Translations under genes and position numbers: made by a program
Notes under the pieces: model-generated
What the model was told of the DNA's origin: nothing
What the model saw: the letters and a program-made list of their open reading frames with translations, nothing else
Databases searched by the model: none
Part shown: positions 19,825 to 30,458 of the stretch, piece after piece
Numbering within the stretch: position 1 is the first letter of the stretch
Layout: each line of letters begins with the position of its first letter
Origin: a virus
DNA length: 30,605 bases
Virus record (IMG/VR): IMGVR_UViG_3300042691_030836
Span: 1-30,605 of that record
Direction: 5' to 3' (one strand)

Positions 19825-20146
19825 CGGCTTCTTTCTTTCCGTTTGGCGCGCGACATAGTTTGACGCTGTCCGCGCGCAGTTCGAGCGATTGACGCTTGAC
19901 TCCGTCCTTTTCATATTCGCGCTGTGACATCTCGCCTCGGATGACGACTTCGCGACCCTTGATGAGATGGGGCTTTACTGCGTCCCAATGCGCACCCCAA
20001 GCGCTGACGGAAACCCATGTGGTCACGGCTTTATCGCCATGACCCGAGGTGCATCCCACCATGAATGAATGCACAGTCGACTTTCCAACATCGCGGGACG
20101 TTGCATCCCTGCCAATGAATCCGTGAATGGTTGAATGAATGCTCAT
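19805..20146 (-). CDS. ssb: Single-stranded DNA-binding protein
   Basis: This 113-residue OB-fold protein coats single-stranded DNA in replication and recombination. ATG 20146 is chosen because AAAGGAGG lies four bases upstream (20151-20158 on the plus strand). The body has strands typical of SSB: FMVGCTSG, TTWVSVSAWG, GREVVIRGEMSQREYEKDGV and SLELRADSVKLC. The C-terminus ends EADEEVPF, close to the acidic D-D-I-P-F tip by which bacterial SSB recruits partner proteins. It is shorter than the host protein (about 160-180), lacking the long linker, as is common in phages. It is co-transcribed with an ERF annealing protein and a PD-(D/E)XK nuclease. Confidence 0.85.
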   Translation of the reverse strand: MSIHSTIHGFIGRDATSRDVGKSTVHSFMVGCTSGHGDKAVTTWVSVSAWGAHWDAVKPHLIKGREVVIRGEMSQREYEKDGVKRQSLELRADSVKLCRAPNGKKEADEEVPF

Positions 20147-20781
20147 TTGGCCTCCTTTAGCCTTGCTTTGCGCTTTTCGTGCATCGCTAACATCGTGCGA
20201 GCGCACGTGAATTCCGTCTCACACATCCACAGGACGTCAAGGGGAATCCACTGCTCCCGGTAAATCGGGGCATTCCTCCCCAGATGTAGGACCATCGCCC
20301 CAGCTAGCTTGTCGTATCCGTTCTGCCTCCATGCGATGGAATACCCACCGATTTGGGTATACGAATGTCGGTCCGCGGTGGGTAGCTGTCCGGATTCGTT
20401 GGTCGACTTCGTCTTCAGATCGATAAGAATCAATTTCCCGTCGACCTCCACCACCAAATCAATCCGGCCACCGAACGCCATTTCACGCGGAACCCCTGCG
20501 ATGACCCTGACCTCGGACGCTGGCAACCCGCCGGGGAGTCGATGGAGCAGAGGTTCACGGTCCCACCGCCACTGGCACCACGCTTGCCACGCTGGCAGCA
20601 GCTCGTCAGGGACGAGGTCGACTGCGTCAGCGAAAGAGCGCTCAATCAGCGAATGGATAGCAGTCCCGAGCCTAGCCGCTTCCTCGACAGCGGCCGATTT
20701 ATAGCTGCTTTTCATTTGAGCCACGACCTCGCTCACGCTGGGAATCGGCTCGCCATCGAGGAAGTAGTCACCCGGAGGCAT
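20143..20781 (-). CDS. PD-(D/E)XK nuclease (Cas4/RecB-like)
   Basis: This 212-residue nuclease probably resects DNA ends for the annealing protein. ATG 20781 is selected because GGGGG lies about seven bases upstream and the longer frame reaches into the preceding gene. Motifs fit the Cas4/AddB-C/RecB group: a GTAIH helix (39-43), GRID (105-108, catalytic D108), DLKTK (121-125, D121 and K123) and QIGGY (143-147, the Q-x-x-x-Y motif). There is no four-cysteine iron-sulfur cluster, unlike many Cas4 proteins. Order with ERF and SSB suggests a two-component exonuclease/annealase system like lambda Red in function. It overlaps the upstream and downstream genes by 14 and 4 bases. Confidence 0.82.
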   Translation of the reverse strand: MPPGDYFLDGEPIPSVSEVVAQMKSSYKSAAVEEAARLGTAIHSLIERSFADAVDLVPDELLPAWQAWCQWRWDREPLLHRLPGGLPASEVRVIAGVPREMAFGGRIDLVVEVDGKLILIDLKTKSTNESGQLPTADRHSYTQIGGYSIAWRQNGYDKLAGAMVLHLGRNAPIYREQWIPLDVLWMCETEFTCARTMLAMHEKRKARLKEAK

Positions 20782-21046
20782 CGAGCACCCCCGGGCCAAG
20801 GGCGTAATCGACCAGCTCCCCGTGATGCCCAGGGATGCCGGTGGTCCATAGCCCGATGAGGCGTTGGTCATCCAATGCGGCTACCCCGAGCGGGGTCCAG
20901 CCAGTATGGTCGTCGATCCACCCGACGTCCAGGTGACTACCATCGGGAAGCGCCAGCATCCCACCCGCACGGCCAGTGATGGCATTACCGGCATCCCAAT
21001 ACAGAAATACACGATATCCGCCGGGAAATTTGAGGTTTCGCTTCAC
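20768..21046 (-). CDS. Small protein between ERF and nuclease genes
   Basis: This is a 92-residue protein. GTG 21046 overlaps the ERF stop by four bases (GTGA), a typical coupled start; GTG 21058 is an alternative. The product is beta-rich and Gly/Asp-rich (FPGGYRVFLYWDAGNAITGR, SHLDVGWIDDHTGWTPLGV) and has no known motif that I can name. It ends inside the start of the nuclease gene (14-base overlap). Placement suggests a partner in recombination, but no function can be assigned. Confidence 0.6.
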   Translation of the reverse strand: MKRNLKFPGGYRVFLYWDAGNAITGRAGGMLALPDGSHLDVGWIDDHTGWTPLGVAALDDQRLIGLWTTGIPGHHGELVDYALGPGVLDASG

Positions 21047-21621
21047 TTTTTCGCCCACTGGTCAAACGCGCCGCGCTGCGTGGTGCCCTCCTCGAGGACC
21101 TGTCGGAGCGCCCGGAGAGCGCTCGGGTCGCGGTCTTTGATCGGCGCTTTCCCGAGGCTTTGCAGCCAGGCATCAACGGCCTCGGGCTGCGCATCCAGCG
21201 GATGTAGAGTCATCGCCACGACCGGAGCTGGGGACGCAGGCTCTCGGCGCTGCCCTGCTTCCCCGTCGTCGTCCTCCGCCGGGACCCCCAAGGCTGCCAT
21301 CAGGCTGTACCTGCGCAGATAGGTGCACGTAGACCCGATAGCCTGTGGGCTAGCGTCCTTCGCTTGGGCGCGGATGGTGCCCCATGCCCATTCGCGCTCT
21401 CCGTACAGGAGGATGGTGCGCACCGCTACCGACGTCCCCTCCACCTCCACCGACTGCGTCCACCCGATGCCAGCCGCAGAGAGCGGCCCACGGATCGCCT
21501 CGACCACCGAGGCTAGGCTCGCATACGACGAGCGGAAATGTGGATTTTTGCTGTCCTTTGCTGCGCCGGACATAGCACCTTGGGCCGTCGCAAGAGCGGC
21601 GGCGAACGATGTGTCACTCAT
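21043..21621 (-). CDS. erf: ERF-family single-strand annealing protein
   Basis: This 192-residue recombinase anneals complementary single strands and can support genome circularisation and recombination-dependent replication. ATG 21621 has AGGAG five bases upstream; an in-frame GTG at 21627 is disfavoured. Diagnostic segments are KNPHFRSSYASL (25-36), a GIGWTQSV strand (51-58), QAIGSTCTYLRRYSL (93-107) and EDDDG (116-120), which closely follow the ERF pattern. The C-terminal 70 residues are variable and probably interact with other proteins. The nuclease and SSB genes downstream complete the module. Confidence 0.9.
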   Translation of the reverse strand: MSDTSFAAALATAQGAMSGAAKDSKNPHFRSSYASLASVVEAIRGPLSAAGIGWTQSVEVEGTSVAVRTILLYGEREWAWGTIRAQAKDASPQAIGSTCTYLRRYSLMAALGVPAEDDDGEAGQRREPASPAPVVAMTLHPLDAQPEAVDAWLQSLGKAPIKDRDPSALRALRQVLEEGTTQRGAFDQWAKK

Positions 21622-21630
21622 GTTCACTCC

Positions 21631-23046: not shown

Positions 23047-23333
23047 GATTTCTCCACGGTTTTCGTTGTTAGAACCGCTTGCAGGGTTTCTTCCTGCGGG
23101 GCGAATGAGATAAAGCAGATACCATCGCGGTTCAACTCAAACCGGATGCTCTGCCCGTGACGGGAAGTGCGCACGACTTCCCCAGCAAAGTGGCCACGAA
23201 AGTAAGCCTCGGAGAGATGCAGGACCGGATGTTCCCGGCCCTCGACGGTTGCTGAGATGACCGTCGCGTCAGGGTGAGCGCGCAGCCAGGTAGCCAGCGT
23301 TTCGAGGTGATGTAACGTCGTGTCGGCGGTCAA
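23043..23333 (-). CDS. First gene of leftward operon, unknown
   Basis: This is a 96-residue protein. TTG 23333 is the best start because AGGAGG lies four bases upstream; longer ATG/GTG versions would run through the divergent control region. The N-terminal helix (LHHLETLATWLRAHPDATVI) is followed by strands (FRGHFAGEVVRTSRHGQSIR). It is the promoter-proximal gene of the leftward recombination operon. Function is unknown. Use of TTG may limit its expression. Confidence 0.55.
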   Translation of the reverse strand: MTADTTLHHLETLATWLRAHPDATVISATVEGREHPVLHLSEAYFRGHFAGEVVRTSRHGQSIRFELNRDGICFISFAPQEETLQAVLTTKTVEKS

Positions 23334-23372
23334 GTTACCTCCTGGGCATACCTTACCGCGTGGCTTGCCCGT

Positions 23373-23384
23373 GGGGTATATCCC
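23373..23384. promoter_or_regulatory. GGGGTATATCCC site in divergent control region
   Basis: This is identical to 12 bases of the palindrome in the capsid promoter (2508-2519). It lies directly next to the GTGACATTTCGTGACA operator and overlaps the first CTTGCCC repeat. TATATC or TATACC inside it could also serve as a -10 box on either strand. Confidence 0.45.
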
Positions 23385-23400
23385 GTGACATTTCGTGACA
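23385..23400. promoter_or_regulatory. Operator GTGACATTTCGTGACA, copy 1
   Basis: This is a tandem pair of GTGACA units ten bases apart. The exact 16 bases recur at 25770-25785, each time about 55 bases before a Xre-type regulator gene. TTGTCA on the minus strand (23401-23396) could be a -35 box of the leftward promoter, which binding here would block. Confidence 0.6.
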
Positions 23401-23412
23401 ACGTGTCCCCCC

Positions 23413-23441
23413 TTGCGTACCGCTTGCCCCTGGGGTAACAC
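23413..23441 (+). promoter_or_regulatory. Putative rightward early promoter
   Basis: TTGCGT (23413-23418) and TAACAC (23436-23441) are spaced by 17 bases, ending 16 bases before the ATG of the first regulator. The -10 box is weak and like that of the capsid promoter (TAACAA). The second CTTGCCC repeat covers the spacer, a natural position for control. Confidence 0.35.
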
Positions 23442-23457
23442 TTACCAGGGAGGCGAG

Positions 23458-23670
23458 ATGCCGCTTGGGTTGCTGGTGCGGGAGGCGCGTGAGGCGCGGG
23501 GCTGGTCGCAGGTCGAGTTGGCCGAGCGGCTAGGTCTGTCCGGTGCGCAGGTGTCTAGGGTGGAGGCGGGACTGCGGGGAGTGAGTACGGATGTTCTCGC
23601 CCGGCTGGCCCAGGAGTTGCAGATCCCGGCAGACCAAGTCCTCGCAGCGTTGGCCGACGATGCGGTATGA
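23458..23670 (+). CDS. Xre-family transcriptional regulator, paralogue 1
   Basis: This is a 70-residue helix-turn-helix repressor or activator of the Xre/Cro/CI type. ATG 23458 has GGAGG four bases upstream. Helices 2-3 are SQVELAERLGLSGAQVSRVE and the fourth helix LARLAQELQI, the full five-helix domain with no extra effector domain. About 29 of 51 aligned residues are identical to the regulator at 25838. Both genes have the same 16-bp site upstream. It heads a rightward operon and faces the leftward recombination operon, as immunity-region regulators do. Small size suggests a Cro-like role. Confidence 0.82.
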   Translation: MPLGLLVREAREARGWSQVELAERLGLSGAQVSRVEAGLRGVSTDVLARLAQELQIPADQVLAALADDAV

Positions 23671-23935
23671 CGTTGGGGCGCGGTCGGTGGCGCAAGGGTT
23701 GCGAACCCAGGCTGCGCTACTGCGGGCGATGGCAAATCGCCGGCCTGCCACGCCCAACAGGCTGGCGCAGCGTGTGTTGGCGAGTCCGCGCAGCGTGCGG
23801 ATGCACCTACACCGGTTGGCAGACCTCGGGCTGGTCGAGCGCGACCGACCGACTACCGGCAAACAGTGGGCGAAATGGCGACTAACAACAACAGGAGAAG
23901 ACCATGTCAGTAGATTATCAGCCGCATCCGTATAG
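23660..23935 (+). CDS. Winged-helix DNA-binding protein
   Basis: This is a 91-residue protein overlapping the upstream regulator by 11 bases. ATG 23660 is the first start that leaves a plausible product; longer versions lie inside the upstream gene. The central part (TPNRLAQRVLASPRSVRMHL followed by HRLADLGLVERDRP) is a typical winged-helix pattern of the MarR/ArsR or MerR-like replication type, followed by a strand-turn wing (KWRLTTTGEDHV). No strong ribosome site is present, so translation is probably coupled. It probably regulates the same operon or assists replication. Confidence 0.65.
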   Translation: MRYDVGARSVAQGLRTQAALLRAMANRRPATPNRLAQRVLASPRSVRMHLHRLADLGLVERDRPTTGKQWAKWRLTTTGEDHVSRLSAASV

Positions 23936-24185
23936 GCAGGGGCAAGCATACTGCGTCCGGACGGTGACTCAGGTGTTTATCGGGCGTTTGGCCGTGGTCC
24001 TGCCTGGGGAGATTGTCCTGTACGATGCGTCGTGGGTGGCCGACACTGGCCGATGGTCCGTCGCGCTAGCTACCGGTGCGCTCCGGGACGTCGAGCCGTA
24101 CCCGGATGGGCCGGTTGTGGTTTCGCGTGCTGCGATCGTCGATGTTTGCGAGTGGGCGCACGCTTTGCCAAGGGGGGCGCGGTGA
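23904..24185 (+). CDS. Unknown beta-rich early protein
   Basis: This is a 93-residue protein with AGGAG eight bases before ATG 23904, overlapping the winged-helix gene by 32 bases. Strand-rich segments (QAYCVRTVTQVFIGRLAVVL, GEIVLYDASWVADTGRWSVA) suggest a small beta barrel, with a C-terminal helix (AAIVDVCEWAHAL). No family is recognised. It is part of a run of overlapping small genes leading to the PAPS-reductase-like gene. Confidence 0.6.
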   Translation: MSVDYQPHPYRQGQAYCVRTVTQVFIGRLAVVLPGEIVLYDASWVADTGRWSVALATGALRDVEPYPDGPVVVSRAAIVDVCEWAHALPRGAR

Positions 24186-24388
24186 TCCACCCGCACTTGC
24201 TGCACCACATGCGCACCGAGGTTTGGTCGGCAGCGATCTTGCCAGGGTCATCTTTGCACCGGGTAGCGCATACGAAATTCGCGCCCTATGCCCCGTGTTC
24301 CCAGCACGACGGGCAGACCGCGACGTACATGGAGGGCCTTACGGTCGGCTACCCTTACGGCGAGCGGATCGAACAGGGGGAGCCATGA
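24182..24388 (+). CDS. Small unknown protein, GTG start
   Basis: This is a 68-residue product. GTG 24182 overlaps the previous stop (GTGA), with AGGGGG about five bases upstream. It is His/Tyr-rich (HPHLLHHM; KFAPYAPCSQHDGQTATYME) with a single Cys. No recognisable motif is present. It overlaps the next start by four bases. Operon packing is the main evidence for a real gene. Confidence 0.5.
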   Translation: MIHPHLLHHMRTEVWSAAILPGSSLHRVAHTKFAPYAPCSQHDGQTATYMEGLTVGYPYGERIEQGEP

Positions 24389-24612
24389 ACTCGGCGCGCC
24401 AGTACCGGGACCGCCTTGAAGAACGCGAAGCCCTGCTCGACTCCCGAGCGGAGCGGCTACAACAACAGGCTAACCTCCTGGCGATTGCCGGGCCGTGGGG
24501 CGCGTTCCTCGGGCCGGATGGGCTCGAATCTGCCCTGACGAGGACGATCAGAGTCCACGGCCACCAGCTCGACGAGGCAGCCCGAGAGCGGTTGCGGGAT
24601 TTGCTCCGATGA
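24385..24612 (+). CDS. Small helical protein
   Basis: This is a 75-residue protein. ATG 24385 follows GGGGGAG and overlaps the previous stop by four bases (ATGA). It begins with an Arg/Glu-rich coiled coil (YRDRLEEREALLDSRAERLQ) and ends in a second helix (HQLDEAARERLRDLLR). Four-base coupling to the PAPS-reductase-like gene downstream suggests joint function or merely operon packing. Family unknown. Confidence 0.5.
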   Translation: MNSARQYRDRLEEREALLDSRAERLQQQANLLAIAGPWGAFLGPDGLESALTRTIRVHGHQLDEAARERLRDLLR

Positions 24613-25553
24613 TTCCTCACTACCTACATCCGAAAATCATCGTTAGCGTTAGCGGCGGCAAAGATTCAACTGCGACTTGTTTACATCTTCGGGATCTCGG
24701 CATCCCTTACCAAGCGGTCTTCATGGACGTCGGTTGGGATAATGCAGCGACCTATGACTATCTGCGGCACGACTTACCATCAATCATCGGGCCGATTACG
24801 TGGCTCCGTCAAGAAGTCCCACTAGTCGAAGGGTACGAGGACGCAACTCTGGAAATTGAACGCTGTTTAGGCATTTCACCTAGCAGCATGGTTCGGATGT
24901 GCGTGTGGAAGGGTGTTTTTCCGTCTAGGGTCATGCGCTGGTGTACGGAACATCTCAAAGTCAAACCTGCGATCGAACATTTCAAGGCTCACAAAGCCGA
25001 TGATGTTGTGGTGGTTAATGCTATCGGAGTTCGACGGGCCGAAAGTAGGGCGCGATCGGTGCTGCCGGAGTGGGAATGGTCGGCAGCGCATGGTGGGCTG
25101 CTGGTGTGGCGACCTTTGATCGACTGGTCAGAGGATCAAGTCATCCAACTACACCGACGCCACGGAGTTCGACCAAATCCAAATTATCTCTTTGGTGCTT
25201 TGCGGGTTGGATGTTGGCCGTGCATTTTCGCACGAAAGGATGAAATTCGACGCATCGCGGACACAGATCCAAACAGGATCAAAGCGATGCAGATGTTGGA
25301 AACCTTGGTGGCAGAACGGGCCAGGGACAGACGCATCAAAAACGGAAAACCGCTTGGTTGGAAACCAACGTGGTTCCAAAATCCGACAAGCGCACTAACC
25401 GAAGATGGGCGGCGCGATGGTAGTACCTGGGAAATTGACCGGGTGGTCAATTGGTCGAGGACGAGCCGAGGCGGGCGACAGTTTGAGCTGTTCACGCTAC
25501 CGGATACCGAGGCCGGGTGCTTTCGGTGGGGCATGTGCGAGAAGCCCGAATGA
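24609..25553 (+). CDS. PAPS reductase / DndC-like adenylyl-sulfur enzyme
   Basis: This is a 314-residue protein of the adenine-nucleotide alpha-hydrolase (PP-loop) superfamily. SGGKDST at residues 15-21 is the PP-loop. W111-C112 followed by TEHLKVKP, R142/R143/E145/S146 and the GCWPC pair (C202, C205) are shared by phage-borne PAPS reductases and by the DndC sulfur-transfer protein. C304 and C310 near the end may complete an iron-sulfur site. Possible roles are sulfur metabolism, DNA phosphorothioation or another nucleotide modification; no dnd partners are present here. The gene looks more AT-rich than its flanks and lacks the GTCGAC words common elsewhere, so it may be a recent acquisition. 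It is tightly coupled to its upstream neighbour (ATGA). Confidence 0.8.
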   Translation: MIPHYLHPKIIVSVSGGKDSTATCLHLRDLGIPYQAVFMDVGWDNAATYDYLRHDLPSIIGPITWLRQEVPLVEGYEDATLEIERCLGISPSSMVRMCVWKGVFPSRVMRWCTEHLKVKPAIEHFKAHKADDVVVVNAIGVRRAESRARSVLPEWEWSAAHGGLLVWRPLIDWSEDQVIQLHRRHGVRPNPNYLFGALRVGCWPCIFARKDEIRRIADTDPNRIKAMQMLETLVAERARDRRIKNGKPLGWKPTWFQNPTSALTEDGRRDGSTWEIDRVVNWSRTSRGGRQFELFTLPDTEAGCFRWGMCEKPE

Positions 25554-25702
25554 ATCGCGAACTTATCCTCGCCCTGACCCTATCCGGCCCGCCGATCGCA
25601 TTTGTCAAATGTTGTTACGCAGGGGTCAAAGCCCACAACACATACCAAACCGACAGCGCGAAAATCAGCGCAACCATGTCAGCGAGCTGCTCACGCATCT
25701 GA
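25550..25702 (+). CDS. Small protein after PAPS reductase (doubtful)
   Basis: This is a 50-residue frame starting at ATG 25550 by a four-base overlap with the previous stop. The N-terminal part is hydrophobic (ELILALTLSGPPIAFVKCC) and may be a membrane or signal-like segment. The remainder is Ser/Thr/Lys-rich. No strong ribosome site or motif is present. Its overlap start is the main support, so the gene remains uncertain. Confidence 0.35.
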   Translation: MNRELILALTLSGPPIAFVKCCYAGVKAHNTYQTDSAKISATMSASCSRI

Positions 25703-25837: not shown

Positions 25838-26071
25838 ATGCATAGAGTCAGTGACGTCGTGCGATTGTATCGGGAGCAGCTAGGCTTATCGCAGGTCGAG
25901 CTAGCTCGCCGGGCCGGGGTGTCGTCGGTGACGATCCTTCGGATCGAGCGTGGGGAACGGGGTGTCAGTGTGGATTTGTTGGCGACTCTCGCCCAAATCC
26001 TCGGCATCGGCCCGAAGACACTGGGCGGCGCTATCCTAGTGTGGGAGTCGCCTCCGGAGTCGGAGCGATGA
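25838..26071 (+). CDS. Xre-family transcriptional regulator, paralogue 2
   Basis: This is a 77-residue helix-turn-helix regulator. ATG 25838 has AGGGGG upstream. The core (SQVELARRAGVSSVTILRIE, GVSVDLLATLAQILGI) aligns with the regulator at 23458 over about 51 residues with roughly 29 identities. The recognition helices differ (SSVTILRIERG against SGAQVSRVEAG). A short C-terminal tail (VWESPPESER) has no counterpart in the first paralogue. It opens the replication operon and overlaps the next small gene by four bases. It may share the upstream operator with its paralogue, giving cross-regulation. Confidence 0.82.
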   Translation: MHRVSDVVRLYREQLGLSQVELARRAGVSSVTILRIERGERGVSVDLLATLAQILGIGPKTLGGAILVWESPPESER

Positions 26072-26181
26072 GGCGGCTAGTGGGATGGGTAGGTGTAGTC
26101 GGGGTGGTGGTCGCGGTCACCCTCGGCGTGCTGGCGGTGGCTTGGGATGCTGCGCTGGCTCGGAGGGATGGGGATGTTTGA
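26068..26181 (+). CDS. 37-residue single-pass membrane peptide
   Basis: ATG 26068 overlaps the regulator stop (ATGA) and the frame ends at 26179-26181, overlapping the RusA start. The product has two Arg residues, then a long hydrophobic helix (LVGWVGVVGVVVAVTLGVLA) and a charged tail (ARRDGDV). Position-coupled translation and the clean membrane profile support a real gene. It might be an early membrane protein (superinfection exclusion or host takeover), but function is unknown. Confidence 0.5.
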   Translation: MRRLVGWVGVVGVVVAVTLGVLAVAWDAALARRDGDV

Positions 26182-26641
26182 CGCACATTTGGCTAAAGTA
26201 GAGTTCGAGGCCACCATCCCAGGGCAGCCCAAAGCATGGCAGCGCGCCAGGGACGCAGGGCCGGACGGGTACGTCAATCCGGCCAGTTATTCCCGTTGGC
26301 TGCGGCAAACGAGCCAACACATACGAGGCCAATGGAAGCAGGCCGGCAACACTCGGCGGTTGGAGTGTCCGCTCGAGGTCGAGCTGGCGTTCTTTCTCCA
26401 CCGTCCACAGCGTCGACCTGACGGCTACCCTCGGGAGCTCTGGGATATGCCGCCCATCCCAGCGATCGGCCGGTCAGACGTCGATAACTATGTAGCGGCA
26501 GTGTTTGACGCGATAACCCGGGCTGGCATCTGGATCGACGACACCCGGGTGTCCGGGCTGCGAGCGTCCAAAATCTGGATCCCGACCAGCCAACCGGAGG
26601 GGACCACCATCCGGATCAGCTCACTCTCGACCATATTCTAG
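26174..26641 (+). CDS. rusA: RusA-type Holliday junction resolvase
   Basis: This 155-residue endonuclease cuts four-way junctions, probably to clear recombination or replication intermediates before packaging. ATG 26174 is preferred because GGAGGG (26162-26167) lies six bases upstream; ATG 26168 touches that site. The catalytic aspartates stand in the family pattern: SDVDNYVAAVFDAI gives D102 and D104, and WIDDTRV gives D123. The spacing 102/104/123 equals that of E. coli RusA (70/72/91). An early basic region (QPKAWQRAR) fits DNA binding. It works with the ERF/nuclease module encoded on the other strand. Confidence 0.9.
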   Translation: MFDAHLAKVEFEATIPGQPKAWQRARDAGPDGYVNPASYSRWLRQTSQHIRGQWKQAGNTRRLECPLEVELAFFLHRPQRRPDGYPRELWDMPPIPAIGRSDVDNYVAAVFDAITRAGIWIDDTRVSGLRASKIWIPTSQPEGTTIRISSLSTIF

Positions 26642-26651
26642 GTGTAACGCG

Positions 26652-27656
26652 ATGTTACTTACTCATGATTCAACCTGCGGGCTTCACTGGGCGCGGGGCT
26701 GTATGCAGCTCTACGACGGCGTAACAGGGCGTTATACAGACGTTTCACCCGGTGAGCAGGTCCCGGAGTGGGTCCGGCGCGCGGCAAACCGTAACAGTGA
26801 GCACACTGGGCGCGTGAGTGTTCCCGTTACGTGGGATGTTTCTTTGTTTCGGGGGTTGCGGGAGACTGCTTCGATGGCGCGCACGTGGGGGTGGCCGAAG
26901 GTCGTCGAGTTGCTGTCGAGGTATCGGAGGGTGGCGGCGAAAGCGGATCTCCCTCTGTGGTCGGCGGCGAGCTGGCCGGCCGGCGCGTCGACGTGTCGAA
27001 CTGCGGACGTAGAGGCTGTGGGGATGCTGGTGCTCGACTATGATGACGGCACCATGACCCTCGAGGATGCTGCTCGGAGGTGGGGACGCTGGCAGTCACT
27101 GATCCACACATCGCCCAGCCACCGTCCAGAGACCCCCCGGTTCCGGGTCGTCGTCCCCCTGGCTCGGCCCGTCCCGGCCTCGGACTGGCCTCGAGCGTGG
27201 CGTTGGGCGGCTCGATGGGGTGGCGCGGTAGACCATGCGGCGAAGGATGCTGGCCGGCGATACTATCTGCCCGGCGGCGATGCTCCCGAGGTTTGGCGGC
27301 TGCTGGTGCAAGGCGACCGGCGACCGTGGCTGCACCTGGATGCCGATCGCCTCCCACCCGAGCCCACTGCGCCTGTCCGAGCCGTCATCCCGAGGCCTCC
27401 GTCGGGGCCGCTCCCCGAAACCGAGGCGAGGAGAGAGATAGCGGATCGATTGAAAGCCGACCCCGACCTCCGCGCCAGTGCCGGCATCCGGCTCGGGGGC
27501 CAAATCTCGAGCGGCAACGTCCGGGCCGTCCCCTGTCCCCAGTGCGGCGACCGGAGTGTATGGTGGCCTCTCGCACCAACCGGAACACCAAAAGCCCTCT
27601 GCAACCACCGCAATAGCTGCGGATGGTCCGGATGGATCGACACCCTCCTCACCTAG
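26652..27656 (+). CDS. Archaeo-eukaryotic-type primase (PrimPol-like)
   Basis: This protein of up to 334 residues probably makes primers for phage replication. The AEP core is visible (numbering from ATG 26652): LVLDYDDG with D129 and D131 as metal ligands, HTSPSH (152-157) and RFRVVVPLARP (164-173), then HAAKDAGRRYYLPGG. The C-terminus has a four-cysteine zinc ribbon (CPQC ... CNHRNSC). The start is uncertain. ATG 26652 lies inside a GTAAC/GTTAC palindrome and has no clear ribosome site, while GTG 26814 begins just at the conserved domain (VSVPVTWDVSLFRGL). Downstream genes for an accessory protein and a helicase complete a replication operon. Confidence 0.8.
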   Translation: MLLTHDSTCGLHWARGCMQLYDGVTGRYTDVSPGEQVPEWVRRAANRNSEHTGRVSVPVTWDVSLFRGLRETASMARTWGWPKVVELLSRYRRVAAKADLPLWSAASWPAGASTCRTADVEAVGMLVLDYDDGTMTLEDAARRWGRWQSLIHTSPSHRPETPRFRVVVPLARPVPASDWPRAWRWAARWGGAVDHAAKDAGRRYYLPGGDAPEVWRLLVQGDRRPWLHLDADRLPPEPTAPVRAVIPRPPSGPLPETEARREIADRLKADPDLRASAGIRLGGQISSGNVRAVPCPQCGDRSVWWPLAPTGTPKALCNHRNSCGWSGWIDTLLT

Positions 27657-27667
27657 CTGGAGTCAAC

Positions 27668-28564
27668 GTGACACGACTACTAGACCTCGCCACCGAGGCG
27701 GGGATCGAGGTCGCACCGTCCCCGGAATATCCGGTCGCGGCGAGCCTCCCAGAGGCCGTACAGGCATGGATCGAGACGGAGCGCTCGGTATACCGTCGCT
27801 GGGCCTCGCAGGCCGAGTCGCCAGCATCCCGGAGCCTTATGGCTGCAGCCATCGAGGCCGGGCACCGACGACCGGCTGACCTGGTCACTCTGGCAGCACA
27901 CCGACCGTGCTACGGCTGGGCGCTGCGCTCGCCCGATGACCGGCGGCAGCTTGTTCGGGCGCTGTCACGGATGGCGGATCAATGCCTTGAGGCATGGCAG
28001 GCGCAACAGGCCCGACTACCGACCATCGACCGGGTCATCATCTGGCAGAGTGATGAGACGGAATACGAGATCCACGCCCGGGGATCGTTGTTCCGCCTGC
28101 CTGCTTCCGACCTCATGAGTCCTAGCCGCTTTGCGGTCGCATACCTGCAGGCCTGCCAAATCGCCGCCGATATGCCGAAACCCGGGCAGTGGAGAGACAT
28201 GGTCAACGCCATGTTGGCCGCCGCAACGACCCACGACCTGCGCGAAGACGGCCAAGGGGCGTGGTTCCTCGAGGTCATCCGCACCTGTATCCGCCGGCTC
28301 CCGGTGCTCGACGAGCTCTCCGAGGAGCTGTCACAGCGGGCATCGATCGGTGTCACAGAGGACGGACAGGCCGTTATCTGCCTTCATCCCCTTGTCTCAC
28401 GCGTGAAGGCCGTGTGCGAAACCTCCCAACCCCGCGTCTCTGCTGCACTTGTGACACTTCTTGCGAAAAGAGGTGTCACACGTTTTCCCGATGGGCAGCA
28501 GTGCCGAGTGTGGTTCCTACCCCCGGAACTCTCGCCCCCGGTCCGTGAAAGATCGGGCCTGTGA
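27668..28564 (+). CDS. Putative replication accessory / initiator protein
   Basis: This is a 298-residue protein after the primase. GTG 27668 is chosen because GGAG (27659-27662) lies five bases upstream; an ATG at 27623 lies inside the primase gene. The N-terminal half is helical (EAVQAWIETERSVYRRWASQ; DRRQLVRALSRMADQCLEAW). The C-terminal 70 residues (PLVSRVKAVCETSQPRVSAA, LVTLLAKRGVTRF) look like a winged-helix DNA-binding module. The 3' end contains three of the TGTGACAC repeats and its stop codon overlaps the next. It may bind that cluster as an origin-binding protein, which is inference from position. No known family is recognised with certainty. Confidence 0.6.
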   Translation: MTRLLDLATEAGIEVAPSPEYPVAASLPEAVQAWIETERSVYRRWASQAESPASRSLMAAAIEAGHRRPADLVTLAAHRPCYGWALRSPDDRRQLVRALSRMADQCLEAWQAQQARLPTIDRVIIWQSDETEYEIHARGSLFRLPASDLMSPSRFAVAYLQACQIAADMPKPGQWRDMVNAMLAAATTHDLREDGQGAWFLEVIRTCIRRLPVLDELSEELSQRASIGVTEDGQAVICLHPLVSRVKAVCETSQPRVSAALVTLLAKRGVTRFPDGQQCRVWFLPPELSPPVRERSGL

Positions 28565-28794
28565 CACTACTCTTCAATAATAGAGAGATTTTTGAAAAAC
28601 AAAAATGTGTTTTCAAAAAGAGGTGTCACAGTGTCACAAAACCCGAATCATCCAGCACGAAGCTAAACAAATCCTGTGACACTTCTTTTTTGAGTAGTGT
28701 CACAAAATGGTCCAAAACATCGCGAAACCATCGCATCGAGCAGCACTACACGGCTGTGACACATCTTTAGGACTTTATCCCAAGTAGTGTCACA
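28350..28794. repeat. Cluster of ten TGTGACAC octamers
   Basis: Exact octamers occur at 28450, 28560, 28675 and 28755 (TGTGACAC) and at 28350, 28473, 28623, 28631, 28697 and 28787 (GTGTCACA, first bases given). Most are arranged as inward-facing pairs and continue as TGTGACACYWCTY. The best arms are 28450-28462 with 28468-28480 (one mismatch). An eight-base word is expected about once per 65 kb per strand, so the density is far above chance. Several copies lie in coding sequence. This suggests binding sites of an initiator or regulator. Confidence 0.8.
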
Positions 28795-28904
28795 GCAGTG
28801 GATTGGACCTCATGTGGTTTCGAACAAAACAGCCGACTTTCAGCGTCCGAACCGACCGATTCCGATTTCCTACAAATTTCCCCCTATATTAAGAGCAAAA
28901 GCGC
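28565..28904. other. Candidate replication origin / AT-rich control region
   Basis: This is a 340-base gene-free stretch between the accessory protein and the helicase. It holds seven of the ten TGTGACAC copies. At 28571-28620 it is strongly AT-rich, with a perfect 10-base inverted repeat TTTTTGAAAA (28589-28598) / TTTTCAAAAA (28610-28619) between two octamers. Iteron-like sites plus an easily melted segment next to primase and helicase genes are the usual marks of a phage origin. A TATATT box at 28885-28890 may serve the helicase gene. Apparent short ORFs here simply translate the repeats. Confidence 0.5.
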
Positions 28905-30458
28905 ATGAACGTCATTATCGGCCCACCGGGCACCGGAAAGACCACGACCATCCTGACGATCATCGAGGAGGCGCTCGCCAAAGGCACACCGCCGGGTAGG
29001 ATCGGGCTCGTCAGCTTCACTAGGGCCGCAGTCGGCGAAGCGATCGAGCGGGCGTCAAAGCGGTTTGGAATTGACCCGAAGGAATTCCGATATTTCAGAA
29101 CTTTGCATTCTTTGGGTTTTGAACTTTCGGGCAGAGACCGTAAGGTGGTGACGGAGGCCCAGGTCGCCCAGTGGCAGGCGGACGCGGGCTACGGGGGACA
29201 GGTCGAGGCTGACCTCGAGGGGTGGGATGCCGCCCGACCTGACGCGGTAGCAGCCGTGTGGGAGCTGTCCCGGTCGCTGCGCCTGCATCCGAGACACGCG
29301 GCCGGACGCTGGCAGGGGGGCGAGGTCGACTGGCGAGCCGTCGAGAGGTACGGGGCACGGTATACGGCGTGGAAGCAGGAGATAGGGGCGATCGATTATA
29401 CCGACATGCTCGAGGGCGCACTGACAGTCGCGCCGCCTGCCCTCGACCTCCTTGCCATCGACGAGGCGCAGGACCTGTCACCGCTGCAGCAGGCCCTAGC
29501 AGCTCGGCTCCTCGGAGCGGCTCGGGAGGCCTATGTGGTCGGCGACGACGACCAAGCGATCCATGCATGGGCAGGGGCGGACGCGGGCTACCTGCAGCGG
29601 CTGGCAGAGGCCCACGGGTATCGCGTGCTGTCGCAGTCGTATCGGGTGCCTCGACTGGCCCACCGAGCGGCACAGTCCATCATCGGCCGGGTCCGACAGC
29701 GAGTCACTAAGGCATACGCTCCCCGGGACGAGCTCGGGGAGCTGACCTCGGCGGAATGGGGCCGGATGCTGGGATGCCGGCTCATGGGGGCGCTCTCGGA
29801 CGGTGCCGCCCTGCTTTGTCGCACCCGCCGGCAGCTCCACCTAGCCGGACGCTGGCTGCTCGAGGCGGGGATCCCGTATCGGTCAGAGCGTGGTGGCGTG
29901 GACCCGCTCGGAGCAGAGCGTCAGCTCGAGGCGGCGGTCGCGGTCTGCCGGCTGTCGCAGGGCCTACAGCCTAGGGCGGTCGACCTCCGCGCGCTGGCCA
30001 GTCACTGTCGAGCCGGGTCGACCCCAGGCTTGGCTCGAGGGACGCTGGCTCGGCTGCGCCGGGTGGACGTGGACCCGACTGACGGCGACCTCGACGACCT
30101 CGGGGCACGACCGCTGCTCGAGCGTGTCTATCGGGAGGGGATGGAGGCGCTCGACACTGTCGACCCGGAGGCCAGGCGGTACTATCGTCGCGTGCTGCAG
30201 ATTCGGGGCGGACTCCCACCCACGCTCACTCTGACGACTTGTCACGCATCCAAAGGCCGGGAATGGGCTCACGTGTTCATCGACGCGCAAATGACCCGAT
30301 ATCAAGCCAACAGCATCGAGGAGGCCACACCCATGGGCGACGACGAACATCGGGTGGCCTATGTCGCAGCCACCCGGACTAAATGCACACTCACGATTGT
30401 CCAGCCGGAAGGCGCGAAACCGCGATACCATTATCCGATATTCCGTCGTGCAGGTTGA
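28905..30458 (+). CDS. Superfamily 1 DNA helicase, UvrD/Rep type
   Basis: This 517-residue ATP-driven helicase probably unwinds the replication fork. Motifs appear in order: Walker A GPPGTGKT (6-13), motif Ia SFTRAAVGEA (37-46), Walker B LLAIDEAQD (182-190), motif III GDDDQAIHAWAGA (213-225), motif IV QSYRVP (244-249), motif V TCHASKGREW and motif VI VAYVAATR near residue 480. It is compact compared with UvrD (about 720), with short 1B/2B insertions. ATG 28905 is the first start and Walker A follows directly. The ribosome site is poor. It lies just after the repeat cluster and is the last complete gene. Confidence 0.92.
   Translation: MNVIIGPPGTGKTTTILTIIEEALAKGTPPGRIGLVSFTRAAVGEAIERASKRFGIDPKEFRYFRTLHSLGFELSGRDRKVVTEAQVAQWQADAGYGGQVEADLEGWDAARPDAVAAVWELSRSLRLHPRHAAGRWQGGEVDWRAVERYGARYTAWKQEIGAIDYTDMLEGALTVAPPALDLLAIDEAQDLSPLQQALAARLLGAAREAYVVGDDDQAIHAWAGADAGYLQRLAEAHGYRVLSQSYRVPRLAHRAAQSIIGRVRQRVTKAYAPRDELGELTSAEWGRMLGCRLMGALSDGAALLCRTRRQLHLAGRWLLEAGIPYRSERGGVDPLGAERQLEAAVAVCRLSQGLQPRAVDLRALASHCRAGSTPGLARGTLARLRRVDVDPTDGDLDDLGARPLLERVYREGMEALDTVDPEARRYYRRVLQIRGGLPPTLTLTTCHASKGREWAHVFIDAQMTRYQANSIEEATPMGDDEHRVAYVAATRTKCTLTIVQPEGAKPRYHYPIFRRAG

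Follow-up and report, generated by a model that had tools for sequence, protein, structure and literature searches.

The cluster of ten short boxes at positions 28350-28794 of the viral DNA analysed here is probably the replication origin of the phage, a reading to which we assign a probability of roughly 75% from the sequence and its arrangement. The analysed stretch of 30,605 nucleotides, hereafter the window, is a complete IMG/VR virus record, which is without about 4.7 kb at the left relative to its one close relative. A preliminary description had proposed a candidate replication origin of a new type at this position. The origin itself gained support from the layout, from conservation, and from a comparison with 67 viral loci encoding VapE helicases, whereas the claim of novelty could not be upheld.

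Ten boxes around an AT-rich segment

The exact octamer TGTGACAC is found ten times, on both strands (four plus and six minus), and every copy lies within 28350-28794 as previously described, with no copy elsewhere in the 30,605-base record. Shuffling ruled out chance as the source of the cluster (ten copies against a mean of 0.67 and a maximum of three among 100 shuffles), and the confinement of all ten copies to one cluster ruled out dispersal over the whole record. From left to right, box 1 (28350..28357, minus strand) lies within the gene at 27668-28564, together with box 2 (28450..28457, plus) and box 3 (28473..28480, minus), which form an inward-facing pair, and box 4 (28560..28567, plus) includes the TGA stop codon of this gene. 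The remaining copies lie in the gap that follows, so that the cluster indeed runs from the end of a gene into gene-free DNA before a helicase gene. Box 5 (28623..28630, minus) abuts box 6 (28631..28638, minus) head-to-tail with an 8-base step; box 7 (28675..28682, plus) is paired inwardly with box 8 (28697..28704, minus), and box 9 (28755..28762, plus) with box 10 (28787..28794, minus). A degenerate box with one mismatch, TGTGACAG, is located at 28328..28335 on the minus strand. Four inward-facing pairs account for eight of the ten copies, in keeping with the mostly inward orientation reported before. The longer consensus said to be shared by the copies, TGTGACACYWCTY, fits seven of the ten and is absent elsewhere in the record; the copies at 28755, 28631, and 28350 depart from it.

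The left set of four boxes and the right set of six are separated by an AT-rich segment (28568..28622), within which the perfect 10-base inverted repeat noticed earlier, TTTTTGAAAA / TTTTCAAAAA, is present at 28589-28598 / 28610-28619 with 11 bases between its arms. Along the record, the GC minimum falls in the box cluster: the lowest-GC 100-mer (34%, scanned in 10-base steps) starts at 28571, and the lowest-GC 400-mer (20-base steps) starts at 28561. The preliminary description suggested this segment as a possible melting element, which is plausible, given that the lowest-GC 100-mer of the record is found there. GC skew showed no clear switch at the cluster and was uninformative.

One close relative was found among viral contigs, with 32,454 bases and 85-93% nucleotide identity over the aligned pieces. 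It has kept all ten octamers with the same spacing and carries one extra octamer at 382-389, in a region absent from the window. Within 28340-28804, the differences between the two sequences affect none of the 80 box bases and 23 of the 385 other bases (Fisher p = 0.02), and the 75 bases at 28568-28642 are identical. This conservation of the boxes, resting on one relative, is suggestive only. The window region 23072-25603, which holds a PAPS-reductase-like gene (24495-25553) and an HTH gene (23591-23935), had no blastn match in the relative. The right ends of the two contigs, 1.8 kb from the cluster, almost coincide to the base, and the last eight bases of the relative (end of L063) are, as read by eye, the same as its first eight (start of L062), GCATTGCT; the shared stop and the repeated bases possibly mark a real genome end (cos).

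Genes flanking the boxes

The gene order is a primase-like gene, the gene at 27668-28564, the boxes, and a UvrD-like helicase gene. The primase-like gene (26652..27656, plus strand), which follows a RusA-like gene (26147-26641), matches PHROG 9765 'DNA primase' over residues 115-207; PHROG 256 and 3228 are matched more weakly, and in both of these long profiles the match stays within the N-terminal fifth. Downstream, the UvrD/Rep-like helicase gene (28905..30458, plus strand; PF00580, PHROG 1967) starts 110 bases past the last box, leaving a gap at 28565-28904 that is gene-free according to the open-reading-frame list. No VapE, D5, or DnaB-type helicase was detected among the window proteins scanned, which were a subset of the open reading frames of a record without about 4.7 kb at the left. 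Further upstream on the minus strand, a PD-(D/E)XK nuclease gene (20143-20871) and an ERF recombinase gene (21043-21627) are probably a phage recombination pair. The portal-like and terminase-like genes, assigned by reading translations, had no match in the phage collection.

The gene that precedes and overlaps the boxes (27668..28564, plus strand) is the candidate for a box-binding initiator. Its start is either the GTG at 27668, chosen in the preliminary description, or the ATG at 27623. The product encoded in the window matched no Pfam or PHROG family at E-values up to 1, and the copy in the relative matched only PHROG 24779, of unknown function, with an E-value of 0.049. AlphaFold gave two poor models (mean pLDDT of 41.7 and 50.7) and left the product without an assignable fold; searching for similar folds with the better of the two was uninformative. 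The predicted order of a helix, two strands, two helices, and two strands at the C-terminus would allow a winged helix and no more. No usable relatives of the product were found in phages, plasmids, or solved structures, nor in 301 genomes from the phylum of L074, a contig titled Caldilineales bacterium, where the empty answer is uninformative. An apparent second relative in L010 was spurious, being a 50-residue match inside an unrelated gene.

The UvrD-like helicase alone does not go with boxes, because its distant relatives (about 30% identity) mostly lack such a cluster: in the 31 loci examined out of 42, only two had a heptamer with at least five copies in the 900 bases upstream. These two exceptions, L013 and L017, share one GC-rich word, CAGCGGC.

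Comparison with known origins and with other viruses

The layout is already known from Gram-positive PICIs, in which the DNA adjoining the 3' end of the initiation gene is the origin. The available portions of PMC6092414 and PMC7581432 describe SaPI/PICI origins that follow directly on the 3' end of the initiator gene and have an AT-rich stretch between two sets of short boxes, and the latter describes a C-terminal domain of SaPI Rep that recognises the iteron origin directly downstream of the rep gene. The window likewise has four exact boxes to the left and six to the right of the AT-rich segment. The cluster lies directly 3' of, and overlaps, the gene at 27668-28564, a candidate initiator gene. 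The window differs in that this upstream gene has no helicase or Rep/VapE domain recognisable with Pfam or PHROG, and in that a UvrD-like helicase is encoded beyond the boxes instead. For want of a helicase gene upstream, the window does not belong to the SaPI/PICI class itself and would therefore be a variant working like that class. Other phage and satellite origins, as far as the available portions of PMC7145576 and PMC7157519 present them, have no direct bearing on the window.

A weak blastn match (E = 0.1) pointed to Streptococcus phage Javan554, in which ten copies of TGTGACA, three of them being TGTGACAC, lie in both orientations in an annotation-free gap after primase and helicase genes, with a head-to-tail double box, TGTCACAGTGTCACA, beside AT-rich DNA as in the window. 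The upstream genes of Javan554, unlike those of the window, encode Prim-Pol/PriCT-1 and VapE proteins, and tblastn with the two upstream genes of the window gave no match in the phage collection including Javan554. In Streptococcus phage Sfi21, too, the annotated origin is non-coding, follows genes for prim-pol and D5 primase, and has nine copies of a word on both strands, but the word is AGTAAC (nine in 298 bases) and TGTGACA is absent from the origin. The P4 alpha/D5 prim-pol type, to which Sfi21 belongs, has a primase and a D5/SF3-type helicase gene beside the origin, whereas the boxes of the window are flanked by a primase-like and a UvrD-like helicase gene and by none of D5/SF3 type. Unlike in P4, no helicase part was matched in the primase-like gene or in the gene at 27668-28564, and the repeat word of the P4 origin differs from the box of the window. 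Origins of the iteron plasmid and lambda O types have direct repeats of one orientation, unlike the four plus and six minus boxes of the window, which are mostly arranged in inward pairs. Among the titles and abstract openings retrieved in a literature search, none presented the box word as an origin box.

We collected viral contigs by similarity to VapE proteins alone and not by repeats, the query being an alignment of VapE proteins encoded next to TGTGACA clusters in 11 viral loci and in Javan554. From the best 80 of 598 confirmed hits, 12 loci were dropped as redundant (68 left) and one for too little DNA, giving 67 loci, some of which could themselves come from satellites. Non-simple heptamers were counted in a 600-base stretch that began 60 bases ahead of the end of the matched gene and ran to 540 bases past it. 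In this sample from the best 80 hits, a heptamer reached at least five copies in 43 of the 67 loci, and in 42 of these 43 it occurred on both strands; six control stretches taken from these loci gave 2/63, 0/61, 1/58, 0/68, 0/68, and 0/65, and the remaining 24 of the 67 loci fell short of five copies. For 87% of the same 67 loci, the lowest-GC 80-mer of the 540 bases after the VapE gene ranked within the lowest 1% of the locus. By this measure the window has seven copies in the -60/+540 stretch and 11 in 600 bases centred on the gene end at 28564. The repeated heptamer varies among VapE viruses: two loci have TGTGACA as their word, at four or more copies, and most of the sampled loci (L234-L313) carry their own heptamers on both strands, such as TGGAACA, CGGTAAC, TCGGCAA, and GGAAACA, among others. 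The proposal of a new origin type had been founded on the alternating orientation of the boxes. It finds no support, as alternation is the rule after VapE genes, in 42 of the 43 loci with a heptamer at five or more copies from the best 80 of 598 hits, and as the available portions of the cited reports describe SaPI/PICI origins with box sets on both sides of AT-rich DNA.

A scan of other viruses for three alternating copies of TGTGACA returned at least 120 stretches; two control words matched to it in composition returned 37 and 75. Compared with the second of these, TGTGACA is only modestly in excess by raw number, and what sets it apart is its dense non-coding clusters. Among the 120 TGTGACA matches listed, 56 had at least five copies in 500 bases (10/37 and 9/75 for the controls); less than half of the cluster was inside an open frame of 150 codons in 42 of these 56 (3/10 and 5/9), giving 42 dense, mostly non-coding clusters among the 120 matches listed against 3/37 and 5/75. 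Of the 56 dense loci, 17 had a helicase gene with its 3' end toward the cluster and no more than 600 bases from it (VapE in ten, AAA_25 in six, and DUF3987 in one); this arrangement was seen in none of the 64 loci with three or four copies, likewise among the matches listed, and in none of the 37 loci of the first control word; the VapE, AAA_25, and DUF3987 models of this test were built largely from the same proteins. A helicase neighbour does not account for the other 39 of the 56 dense loci among the matches listed. A separate Pfam check of 20 neighbours, picked non-randomly by size and closeness, identified 11 VapE, four AAA_25, one DUF3987, and one DUF5906 protein and none of these families in the other three; the DUF5906 gene has its 5' end, not its 3' end, toward the cluster. 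TGTGACA clusters were also found beside genes for Mu-type transposase, terminase, methyltransferase, repressor, and DnaB proteins. The neighbours are mixed, and TGTGACA alone is therefore no proof of an origin. The cluster of L096, beside a Mu-type transposase gene (L096:5187-7325), and that of L166, probably placed likewise as a second set member matches, are possibly transposase-binding ends. The clusters of L133, L142, and L167, close to terminase genes, might be packaging sites with a similar word.

Searching viral contigs for the paired boxes returned three contigs, namely the relative, L066, and L067. L066 has seven octamers in 386 bases on a 10-kb fragment, in which no replication gene was recognised by eye, and the single octamer pair of L067 is probably due to chance. 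The same scan of genome contigs gave seven stretches against about five expected by chance (a hand estimate), none of them with three octamers in 500 bases. The viral contigs L110 and L146 are nearest to the window in box and layout: mostly TGTGACACTTT boxes lie in a gap, after small uncharacterised genes and just before a large replication gene, as in the window. Unlike in the window, the large gene belongs to PHROG 4210 (a DNA polymerase that also matches families of DNA primases) and the small genes to PHROG 4678/4695, and the PHROG 4678 protein of L110 shows no similarity to the product of 27668-28564.

Possible readers of the boxes and implications

Were the cluster the origin, a phage-encoded initiator would bind the TGTGACAC boxes on both sides of 28568-28622 and open this AT-rich segment, after which the primase (26652-27656) and the UvrD-like helicase (28905-30458) might start copying together with host enzymes. 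The product of 27668-28564 is the likeliest binder because of its analogies with SaPI Rep, Cch2, and P4 alpha, the binder gene standing before the boxes in SaPI and Cch2. Because both AlphaFold models are poor, however, we infer this role from the analogies, and the odds for it are about balanced.

Within the origin reading, and overlapping with it in our confidence, it is also possible, though clearly less probable, that the product of 27668-28564 is otherwise employed and that another protein, be it the primase, the helicase, or one of the host, reads the boxes. The use of the same word by viruses with different helicase families (VapE, AAA_25, and DUF3987) and the lack of an assignable fold in this product are consistent with another reader. 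What argues against one is that in SaPI and SCCmec Cch2 the replication protein is itself the reported binder and its gene immediately precedes the boxes (PMC7581432, available portion), in the place that 27668-28564 occupies here, and that the P4 alpha replication protein has a winged-helix domain binding the origin repeats (PMC4234260, available portion).

The boxes might instead form a multi-site operator, to which a phage repressor such as the HTH protein encoded at 25838-26071 binds and thereby controls the helicase gene. An HTH_3 gene is indeed located 2.3 kb upstream of the cluster, and S24-type or PHROG repressor genes lie near some TGTGACA-dense loci in other viruses, but four of the boxes fall inside the upstream coding gene or straddle its end. 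In a scan for sigma-70-type sites, moreover, the only promoter-like match in 28000-29000 was on the minus strand and near chance, and the GC minimum and the VapE comparison better match an origin, which makes an operator unlikely. A packaging or partition site, which the closeness of the cluster to the shared right end of both contigs and the TGTGACA clusters near terminase genes in L133, L142, and L167 might suggest, is very improbable, as the terminase-like gene (assigned by reading its translation) lies at the opposite end of the contig of the relative, no ParA/ParB family was found among the window proteins scanned, and the boxes are flanked by replication genes.

Taking the cluster as the origin, we tentatively consider a two-part arrangement, in which a helicase-free initiator of an undescribed family would read TGTGACAC and pass the opened DNA to the UvrD-like helicase on the far side. 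We regard this as rather doubtful; if true, the UvrD-like helicase would replace the VapE/D5-type helicases found before such boxes elsewhere. Similar clusters in 43 of the 67 VapE loci, drawn from the best 80 of 598 hits and perhaps including some satellites, make the layout look wider than satellites. They suggest a rule for VapE-type phages, that the origin be sought just past the helicase gene, where a 7-base word particular to the phage is repeated, and the catalogue of these heptamers provides candidate origin words for comparison with the C-termini of the helicases. For a phage group not characterised otherwise, the window offers a candidate origin ready for experiments, and it would reveal whether boxes of this kind can function with another type of helicase.
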